From Sphingobacterium thalpophilum (GTDB lineage Bacteria; Bacteroidota; Bacteroidia; B-17B0; Aurantibacillaceae), in assembly GCA_943325195.2 (NCBI GenBank), contig CALPON020000017.1:1-34438 (forward strand): DNA of 34,438 nt, in the 5' to 3' direction. The notes beneath the pieces were generated by a model that worked only from the letters and a program-made list of their open reading frames with translations, was not told the DNA's origin and made no database searches. Numbering within the stretch: position 1 is the stretch's first letter; the number at the start of each line of letters is the position of its first letter. The translations under genes were made by a program, and so were the position numbers. Shown piece after piece: positions 2,288 through 34,438 of the stretch.

Positions 2288-3733
2288 ATGAAAATCACCG
2301 ACTTGCAACCCACCAACCTCTGGAAAAATTTCGCTAATCTGAACGCAGTTCCCCGTCCTTCCAAAAAAGAACAACGGGTCATTCAGTTTGCAAAGGAGTT
2401 TGGTGAAAGTCTGGGACTACCCGTCCTGGTTGACCATGCCGGTAACGTGATCATTTCTAAGCCCGCTACGCCGGGTATGGAAAATAAAACGCCGGTCGTA
2501 CTCCAAAGTCATCTCGACATGGTCCACCAAAAAAACGCAGATACCGCCTTCGATTTTGAGAAACAAGGTATCGACATGTTCGTCGATGGAGACTGGGTCA
2601 AAGCAAGAGGGACCACATTGGGCGCGGATAATGGAGTAGGGGTAGCCGCGATCATGGCTATTCTTGAGAGTAAAGACATTCCACACCCCCCTCTGCAGGC
2701 GCTGTTTACGATTGATGAAGAAACCGGAATGACCGGTGCGTTGGCATTAAAAGGGGGCGTTCTGAATGGAAAAATCCTTCTAAATCTAGATACAGAAGAA
2801 GATACCGAATTGACGATTGGTTGCGCTGGAGGTATTGATATCACCGCATCTGGGAACTACCTGCAAAAAAAGACAACGGAGAGGGAAGGACTTCGCATCT
2901 CTGTCAGTGGCTTAACCGGCGGGCACTCGGGAATGGACATTCAGAAGGGTAGAGGCAATGCAAATAAAATCCTCGCACGCATTTGTCTTACCCTTTGCCA
3001 AAGCGAACTCATCGAACTAGCTTCTTTTACGGGTGGAAGTCTTCGGAACGCAATCCCTCGCGAAGCCGCTGCAGAGGTCACTTTGAAAAAATCAGACCAC
3101 GAAAACATTCTAAAGACAATCGCGGTGCTGACCGAACAAATCAAAAAAGAATTCCACTTTACCGATCCTGCTTTAGACTGCAGCTGCAGGGCAGTTCCTG
3201 CCGCCGATCTGGTCGCGGACTCTTCTTTTAGTGTTAATTTTCTACGCTCATTATATGCTTGTCCAAACGGCATCTACCGCATGAGTCCCGATATTGCCGG
3301 ATTAGTGCAAACTTCCAATAACCTGGCACGCGTTGAATTAAAAGAGGGAAACTTTCAGGTACAGTGCCTCGGTCGAAGCTCCATCGATTCTGAAAAAACA
3401 GATTTGCAAAATGCAGTTGCTGCAGTATTTGAACTTTCCGGCGCTGCCGTGAAATTCTCGGGAAGCTATCCCGGCTGGACACCTCTTCCAAATTCAGAAC
3501 TGGTCCGTTTTATGTCCGATCTCTATGCCCAAAAGTTTGGCCACGCACCAAATGTCAGTGCCGTCCACGCTGGACTGGAATGTGGCATTCTAGGCAGAAA
3601 TTATCCTGATATCCAAATGATTTCCTTCGGTCCAAATATCTTTGGTGCCCACTCTCCCGATGAACGCGCGCAAATCAGTTCCGTTCAAAAATTCTGGGAC
3701 TATCTGCTGGAAATTCTGAAGCAAATTAAATGA
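2288..3733 (+). CDS. pepD: Aminoacyl-histidine dipeptidase (PepD, M20 family)
   Basis: 481 aa. VVLQSHLDMVHQ, TTLGADNGVGVAAIMAILE, LFTIDEETGMTGA, HAGLECGIL and FGPNIFGAHSPDE metal and active-site motifs. Confidence 0.95.
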   Translation: MKITDLQPTNLWKNFANLNAVPRPSKKEQRVIQFAKEFGESLGLPVLVDHAGNVIISKPATPGMENKTPVVLQSHLDMVHQKNADTAFDFEKQGIDMFVDGDWVKARGTTLGADNGVGVAAIMAILESKDIPHPPLQALFTIDEETGMTGALALKGGVLNGKILLNLDTEEDTELTIGCAGGIDITASGNYLQKKTTEREGLRISVSGLTGGHSGMDIQKGRGNANKILARICLTLCQSELIELASFTGGSLRNAIPREAAAEVTLKKSDHENILKTIAVLTEQIKKEFHFTDPALDCSCRAVPAADLVADSSFSVNFLRSLYACPNGIYRMSPDIAGLVQTSNNLARVELKEGNFQVQCLGRSSIDSEKTDLQNAVAAVFELSGAAVKFSGSYPGWTPLPNSELVRFMSDLYAQKFGHAPNVSAVHAGLECGILGRNYPDIQMISFGPNIFGAHSPDERAQISSVQKFWDYLLEILKQIK

Positions 3734-3790
3734 TTTCGCGGCTACCTTTTAGAAGCAATTGACTCTGCTTTTACGGCGAGCTTTGCCAAA

Positions 3791-4100
3791 ACTTTTCAGT
3801 AAAGAAGTCTGAAAGACATCTCACTTCTTTACCATGAACCGCGTCCAAGGCCTTCCTGGAACTTTTCAGCAGAGAAGTCTGAAAGAATTCACAGTGGTTT
3901 ACCATGAATCGCGTCCAGGGCTTTCCTGGAATTTTCAAGCAGAGAAGTCTGAAAGACTTAACAGTGCTTTACCATGAACCGCGTCCAGGGCTTTCCTTGA
4001 ATTTTCAAGCAGAGAAGTCTGAAAGACTTAACAGTGCTTTACCATGAACCGCGTCCAAGGCCTTGCCGGAACTTTCAGCAGAGAAGTCTGAAAGACTTCA
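3791..4100. repeat. Tandem 69-70 bp direct repeat, ~4.5-5 copies
   Basis: GAAGTCTGAAAGA recurs at 3804, 3874, 3944, 4014 and 4083 (spacing 70, 70, 70, 69), each followed by TTTACCATGAA(C/T)CGCGTCCA-type sequence. A dispersed copy lies at ~4494-4557. Confidence 0.93.
4083..4099. repeat. Hairpin GAAGTCT-GAA-AGACTTC
   Basis: Perfect 7-bp stem with a 3-nt loop. Repeated exactly at 4507-4523 and degenerate in the other units. Confidence 0.9.
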
Positions 4101-4104
4101 CACA

Positions 4105-4135
4105 CATTTACCACGGACGCAGTCCGTGGTAAATG
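4105..4135. repeat. Perfect hairpin CATTTACCACGGAC-GCA-GTCCGTGGTAAATG
   Basis: 14-bp perfect inverted repeat with a 3-nt loop. Imperfect second copy at 4531-4557. Confidence 0.95.
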
Positions 4136-4333
4136 CTGTTCACGATGAAGACAAGCCCGAAGGGCTTGAATACGGGGTAACTCTTTTCTGAAAGTAATGA
4201 GTGTTACTTTTTGAAAGATAAACCATGGATACGTCAAGCCCTTCAGGCTTGTGGGAACCGGTTAGTCGCCCTTACCTGAGGCTCTGCCTCAGGTAAGGGG
4301 TATTGAACTCCTCCGGAGTTCCTCGTGAACAGC
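4135..4333. repeat. Multi-hairpin module closed by an 11-bp inverted repeat (GCTGTTCACGA … TCGTGAACAGC)
   Basis: Outer arms 4135-4145 and 4323-4333. They enclose hairpins at 4152-4168 (CAAGCCC-GAA-GGGCTTG), 4191-4210 (AAAGTAA…TTACTTT), 4235-4251 (CAAGCC…GGCTTG), 4269-4299 (CCCTTACCTGAGGC-TCT-GCCTCAGGTAAGGG) and 4305-4321 (GAACTCC-TCC-GGAGTTC). Confidence 0.85.
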
Positions 4334-4493
4334 TTTCAACAACCATAAAAAGAACAAAATACAGTATACCATGCCTTTCGAAAGACATCACATACATCGT
4401 CTAAAAGTTATTGAACCAAAGCTAGCTCTGCCCTCCTTTGTACTTGGGTCTACCCTCAATATCACTTATCGCTGCACGGCCTAGCTTTGTGGG

Positions 4494-4557
4494 AACTTCC
4501 AGTACAGAAGTCTGAAAGACTTCACACGCCTTTACCACTGACGCAGTCCCTGGTAAA
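4494..4557. repeat. Dispersed copy of the 70-bp repeat plus imperfect TTTACCA..GAC-GCA-GTC..TGGTAAA palindrome
   Basis: AGAAGTCTGAAAGACTTCACACGCCTTTACCACTGACGCAGTCCCTGGTAAA is closely similar to 4081-4133. Confidence 0.88.
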
Positions 4558-4686
4558 AGCCCCTTGATTCATGGCATTTCGATACTTATTGACGCATTAG
4601 CCCGCAGCCGGCCTGATCGTTCCGTCACTATGTTAAATTAATTAACTATCTGATTAACAATGTCTTAATTTGTATAAACGACACTC

Positions 4687-4714
4687 TTGCAACGATTTAT
4701 TTCAAGTATATTTG
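4687..4714 (+). promoter_or_regulatory. Bacteroidota-type promoter for rpsA (TTG-N17-TATATTTG)
   Basis: TTG at 4687-4689 and TATATTTG at 4707-4714, about 90 nt before the rpsA ATG. Confidence 0.65.
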
Positions 4715-4804
4715 TGGTCCTGTTTTAAATAAGGCTTAAAACACAAAAATTTAAGTTTAACCGCTCAGACCGGCCTTATCAGTCTGATACAATTAAAAAA
4801 TAAC

Positions 4805-33988: not shown

Positions 33989-34016
33989 TGGATCTTAAAG
34001 GACAAACTTTTTTTTA

Positions 34017-34438
<422 letters not shown>

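Follow-up and report, generated by a model that had tools for sequence, protein, structure and literature searches.

A composite array of hairpins between pepD and rpsA in Sphingobacterium thalpophilum is, with a probability of about 0.75, a non-autonomous REPIN/MITE-like hairpin element that lacks tnpA and is probably mobile in trans. The array lies in the 34,438-nucleotide stretch of DNA analyzed here (the window), which is contig C17 of a 2.91-Mb assembly in 217 contigs. Inverted pairs of hairpin units without a transposase are dispersed over the window and other contigs, and the same units flank a cognate Y1 transposase gene on C147, where the element has its complete form, h1-h2-h3 - tnpA - h3'-h2'-h1'. 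Because the tnpA-less copies have one deletion junction in common, we read the island as a MITE/REPIN-like non-autonomous relative of that form. More tentatively, and a little short of even odds, we propose that Bacteroidota have a REPtron-like system, not recognised until now, whose subclass 1.2 Y1 transposase would read its repeats mainly by shape: GNA-triloop mini-hairpins at a fixed spacing of 29 nt would mark the strand and the stems would drift freely, each genome having its own sequences under one design. We found no earlier description of such a system in the accessible literature, which took in a minority of subscription papers and no bioRxiv preprints.

Anatomy and history of the pepD-rpsA island

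The first-pass annotation had described five tandem copies and one dispersed copy of a 70-bp direct repeat at 3791-4560. The repeat and the right end of this span hold; the true left edge of the island lies at ~3775-3780, not 3791. Tandem units start at 3780, 3850, 3920, 3990 and 4060. Units 1-4 (3780..4059, + strand; pairwise identity 79-97%) each consist of a GAA-loop hairpin, h1, and a degenerate second hairpin, h2; h1 forms a perfect hairpin at 3945-3959 and again at 4015-4029. The fifth unit (4060..4131, +) is shifted by 1 nt, and its second hairpin is intact; it provides an intact left end, h1-h2, that matches an h1-h2 unit model built from other genera. Here h1 (4083..4099, +; GAAGTCT-GAA-AGACTTC) and h2 (4105..4135, +; stem 14 bp, loop GCA) are 29 nt apart from loop to loop, a distance read off the sequence and equal to the modal value in other genera. 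They are followed by h3 (4152..4168, +; CAAGCCC-GAA-GGGCTTG) and by a 65-nt spacer that replaces tnpA (4169..4233, +), with an internal-deletion junction common to other tnpA-less copies. On the minus strand stand h3' (4234..4252), the inverted right-end partner of h3 with one mismatch (CAAGCCCTTCAGGCTTG; inverted repeat 95%), h2' (4269..4299; stem 14 bp, loop TCT) and h1' (4305..4321; loop TCC, which is GGA on the opposite strand). A linker containing a degenerate unit (4322..4483, +), comparable to those that connect successive units in C128, C49 and C175, leads to the dispersed sixth unit, a further left end (4484..4560, +; 86% identity to unit 5) with h1 at 4507-4523 and an imperfect h2, where the array stops.

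Within 3791-4560 there are eight perfect hairpins with a stem of at least 6 bp and a loop of 3 nt, as compared with a mean of 0.27 in 300 shuffles (maximum 2); six have stems of at least 7 bp, versus 0.05 in shuffles. Their triloops are GAA, GCA, TCT and TCC, as first reported, and the stem-loops fall outside long ORFs. That the island has no transposase was also correct: the longest ORF within 3734-4804 is 69 aa, and none there is convincing. At its far end (34016-34438) the window terminates inside a 16S rRNA gene.

The annotation had raised the case that the region is conserved by vertical descent, and it is not: the array is missing upstream of rpsA in all 29 congeners and downstream of pepD in all 13 congeners compared. 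Three congeners have ruvB at a distance of 339-362 bp from rpsA, and from ~4697-4707 onward the window shows homology to their rpsA leader. Because pepD and the array sit between what are ruvB-rpsA neighbours in these three congeners, the block is derived. No clean empty site was obtained; pepD is not beside rpsA in any sampled congener, and the insertion includes pepD. Among the sampled genomes the pepD-rpsA adjacency (2288-4804) is unique to the source genome, and the island coincides with this change in gene order.

Copies in the genome and a single Y1 transposase gene

Copy counts in the genome were taken from sequence-search matches. The hairpins do not occur only here, as might have been the case: the composite is found on eight further contigs (C128, C49, C175, C147, C127, C8, C39 and C19), between which the flanking genes differ. 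These copies share ~74-93% identity with that of the window; some are truncated or degenerate, and those checked sit outside long ORFs, several directly after stop codons. Nor does the genome lack a Y1 transposase. It has exactly one IS200-like Y1 gene (Pfam Y1_Tnp, 1.4e-18), which lies inside the C147 copy, flanked on the left by h1-h2-h3 and on the right by h3'-h2'-h1', which are also the hairpins of the window copy. This tnpA is intact, and its 150-aa product has the motifs DHLH (HUH motif DHxH) and YVQRQEVHH (Y---Q--HH); no tnpB was seen beside it. C147 is only 6.6 kb long, and tnpA and the island are on different contigs of a fragmented assembly. The original suggestion of a REP/BIME-like or MITE-like element with its transposase in trans is thus supported, for an element that has no GTAG tag and whose mobilization in trans we infer.

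The other copies without tnpA have a single internal-deletion junction, after h3, common to all. In the C127 copy the spacer aligns to the last tnpA codons and 3' flank with a score of 55, versus a best of 40 among 300 shuffles. The window spacer compared with tnpA alone gives no significant score (28; shuffle mean 24), and we link it to the tnpA 3' end because other copies bridge it in a multiple alignment. C8 bears a second tnpA 3'-end remnant (L036, ~3740-3830), longer than that in other copies, which points to a separate, independent deletion derivative. The simplest history would be that tnpA was lost by internal deletion and that the deleted form then spread. The assembly breaks within arrays on five contigs (C128, C49, C175, C147 and C8), so that unit counts are uncertain and the copy number is probably underestimated. 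The hairpin-unit model has 34 matches in the source genome, few by comparison with the ~600 REPs of E. coli (PMC8266576).

By analogy, the element is REPIN/REPtron-like in its presumed working. The tnpA body is missing from the island, and extra h1-h2 units have been added in tandem at its left, with recombination or slippage as the putative source of the 70-bp units. TnpA, an HUH/Y1 protein, would bind folded single-stranded hairpins in a strand-specific manner via their GNA loops and would cut beside them. It may then copy or move tnpA-less units in trans, probably at replication.

Hairpin arrays and transposases in other Bacteroidota

We searched 30 usable loci of closer relatives (at least 40% identity) for hairpins with a stem of at least 7 bp and a loop of 3 nt within 220 nt of tnpA. 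Upstream there are 50, versus 0.8 in shuffles, and downstream 51, versus 0.55. Upstream loops are GNA in 40 of 50 cases; downstream loops are TNC, which is GNA on the opposite strand, in 38 of 51. The h2' loops of the source genome (TCT, GCT, CCT) depart from this rule. More distant homologues (<40% identity) have little of the array. Hairpins are enriched in a wider phylum sample too (21 vs 0.8 upstream, 18 vs 0.4 downstream), with the loop rule clear upstream only (GNA 13/21; TNC 5/18 downstream). Of the 22 h1-h2 pairs with a loop-to-loop spacing of 24-34 nt, 17 have a value of precisely 29 nt. Of 103 GNA hairpins, one has a GT[AG]G tag at 0-2 nt from its 5' foot; in the window none has. The hairpins are stable; DNA folding energies were rejected as a strand discriminator, the GNA and TNC strands being equal with the parameters used. 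Missing G-T pairs were dropped as a sign of DNA over RNA because the stems had been selected for Watson-Crick pairing.

The unit model (R1) was built from 17 h1-h2 units in a gapless alignment, none of them from the source genome. Changes on both sides are seen in 12 of 15 base pairs; the units were picked for good stems, which biases the pairing percentage, and the covariance-model searches are the real test. R1 matches the window at 4082-4131 (E 6.5e-9). Across 41 genomes searched, it matches all 26 that have a tnpA of clade A (defined below), with 2-57 matches each; 12 of the 15 genomes without clade-A tnpA have no match, and the other three have one weak match (E 0.017-0.039). All 20 loci of the wider phylum sample match, 19 of these being independent of the model, and some clade-B loci match weakly. 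The negative control, the rpsA and pepD loci of congeners, gave nothing below E 0.47. A DNA search of 60 relatives with the island returned a 22-nt hairpin in G041 as its sole match; because the stems drift, DNA sequence search is too insensitive for the array. An earlier reading from DNA searches (G395 and G082), that arrays occur only near tnpA, was dropped when the covariance model found dispersed units. In a Chitinophagales relative a different hairpin pair is repeated in tandem beside tnpA (L103, 3482-3990), mostly with a ~92-bp period, a series that parallels the 70-bp series of the window.

TnpA homologues occur at E<=1e-20 in 140 of 395 genomes of the class, with 1-7 matches per genome among the genomes listed (one in the source genome), and the relatives found are in Bacteroidota. 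Nearly all homologues read full-length have Y---Q--HH, the signature of TnpA-Y1 subclass 1.2 (Quentin et al. 2018, PMC6006769). Subclass 1.2 is described as ~148 aa, of low copy number, from Bacteroidetes/Cyanobacteria, with "no" for REPs and with typical IS200 ends generally absent (PMC6006769). TnpA has its DHxH, Y---Q--HH, size, low copy number and occurrence in Bacteroidota; it departs from the "no REPs" trait, which was reported as an observation and does not define membership, in that a conserved hairpin array accompanies one clade. In a tree of 97 TnpA proteins, whose bootstrap is not fully settled, the array trait falls mainly in one clade (A; support 100/99), in which 31 of 54 members have an array, 11 one hairpin and 12 none. 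The corresponding numbers for the other clade (B, n=43) are 3, 6 and 34; the trait is enriched in clade A, not exclusive to it.

At E<1e-4, all matches to the predicted structure of the L103 relative (58% identity; mean pLDDT 77) are Y1 transposases, among them IS608 and ISDra2, both with bound hairpins, and a REP-associated tyrosine transposase in complex with a REP. Only this fold search gave matches; a PDB sequence search gave nothing. In relative pairs with measurable dS, dN/dS is 0.05-0.12, and tnpA is therefore under purifying selection in relatives. By NCBIfam, TnpA scores 53.5 bits with NF033573 (IS200), just under the cut-off of 55, and 21.4 with REP_Tyr (the RAYT model), far under the cut-off of 80.

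Alternative explanations and known systems

Among the best 150 unit-model matches, 104 lie >1.5 kb from any listed tnpA, and neighbouring dispersed units are mostly inverted pairs (+/- in 18 of 28). Many of the doublets examined in genomes G082, G041, G123 and G130 are enclosed by CAATGTCRTTWAGTTAAG terminal inverted repeats (TIRs), most with 7-12 bp direct repeats outside. This MITE-like element encloses doublets in several Bacteroidota families (L248-L267, ~160-430 in each), and it looks like a separate DDE-type MITE. For doublets enclosed in this TIR-bounded element, TnpA need not have done the spreading, and dispersal there is weaker evidence for TnpA activity. It is nevertheless very improbable that hairpin doublets in general are cargo of such a MITE: several doublets of the same four genomes have no such TIRs, neither the window nor the eight further contigs with copies has them, and 55 scanned tnpA loci have none beyond scattered 4-mismatch hits. 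We give as little credence to an assembly or binning artefact that brought in arrays or the tnpA contig from another organism. Five contigs ending within arrays and the short length of C147 might suggest one, but the island is an internal part of a 34-kb contig on which core genes also lie, arrays of the C147 type are also on C8, C127 and C39, GC is similar (0.39-0.48) and contamination is estimated at 1.5%.

The hairpins could instead be RNA elements of neighbouring genes (terminators, mRNA stabilisers or attenuators), with an incidental link to the transposase. Their stability and the location of checked copies outside long ORFs, several just past stop codons, are consistent with this idea, which we consider improbable: dozens of loci have the same array, with conserved spacing, around a transposase gene, loop polarity flips over tnpA, so that one end would always be transcribed in the opposite sense, an Rfam search of the island returned no family matches, and the array is not conserved at pepD or rpsA of congeners. 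A more serious alternative, though still an unlikely one, is that the copies are dead remnants of an old dispersal, subject now only to recombination and gene conversion, the tandem units being slippage products. Copies diverged to ~74-93% identity and partly degenerate, the tandem structure itself, and a pepD-rpsA adjacency unique among the sampled genomes, which fits rearrangement at repeats, all agree with such decay; the intact tnpA, its purifying selection in relatives and the separate deletion derivative on C8 argue against it.

Read as a tnpA-less copy of a hairpin element, the island bears on subclass 1.2, for which the 2018 survey, listing no REPs, gave no substrate: the array is a candidate substrate whose anatomy is conserved and which the covariance model finds. 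DNA mini-hairpins with GNA triloops are exceptionally stable (PMC4686876; PMC5815330 for the d(GNA) family); the complement of a GNA loop is a TNC loop, a possible code for strand identity. Loop-read, strand-specific recognition by single-strand transposases becomes directly testable in a Bacteroidota group, and the hairpin system would account for one class of palindrome that is dispersed in genomes of environmental Bacteroidota.

The element shares the Y1 transposase fold and subterminal hairpins with IS200/IS605 (IS608, ISDra2), where hairpins lie on the same strand at both ends, guide sequences direct cleavage at sites at either end, and transposase copies are multiple and near-identical. 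It is not a standard IS200, because its ends are inverted (GNA upstream, TNC downstream) and tnpA is single-copy in the source genome; nor does a tnpB adjoin. Like the atypical REP-like structures of subclass 2.6 (Bacteroidetes, PMC6006769), the hairpins lack GTAG, surround a Y1 gene and have copies elsewhere in the genome; that subclass, compared by its description rather than its structures, has the Y motif YIH[QN]NP and a larger protein. Subclass 1.2 (PMC6006769) agrees in motifs, size, copy number and phylum, and differs in being published without REPs and, in general, without IS200 terminal structures. REPIN/RAYT systems (REPtrons; best studied in Proteobacteria, PMC3116915, PMC8266576) likewise have dispersed, inverted pairs of short hairpins between genes, tandem clusters, and a Y1 transposase of low copy number with these hairpins on its flanks. 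Recognition by TnpA-REP proteins is established as strand-specific and partly loop-dependent, the latter in some tested cases (PMC8266576), and TnpA would presumably share this property. By contrast, the element described here is not a canonical REP, because the GTAG/GTGG tag is absent (1/103); it has three hairpins per end with GNA triloops and a fixed 29-nt h1-h2 spacing, and its TnpA is nearer to IS200 than to RAYT models.
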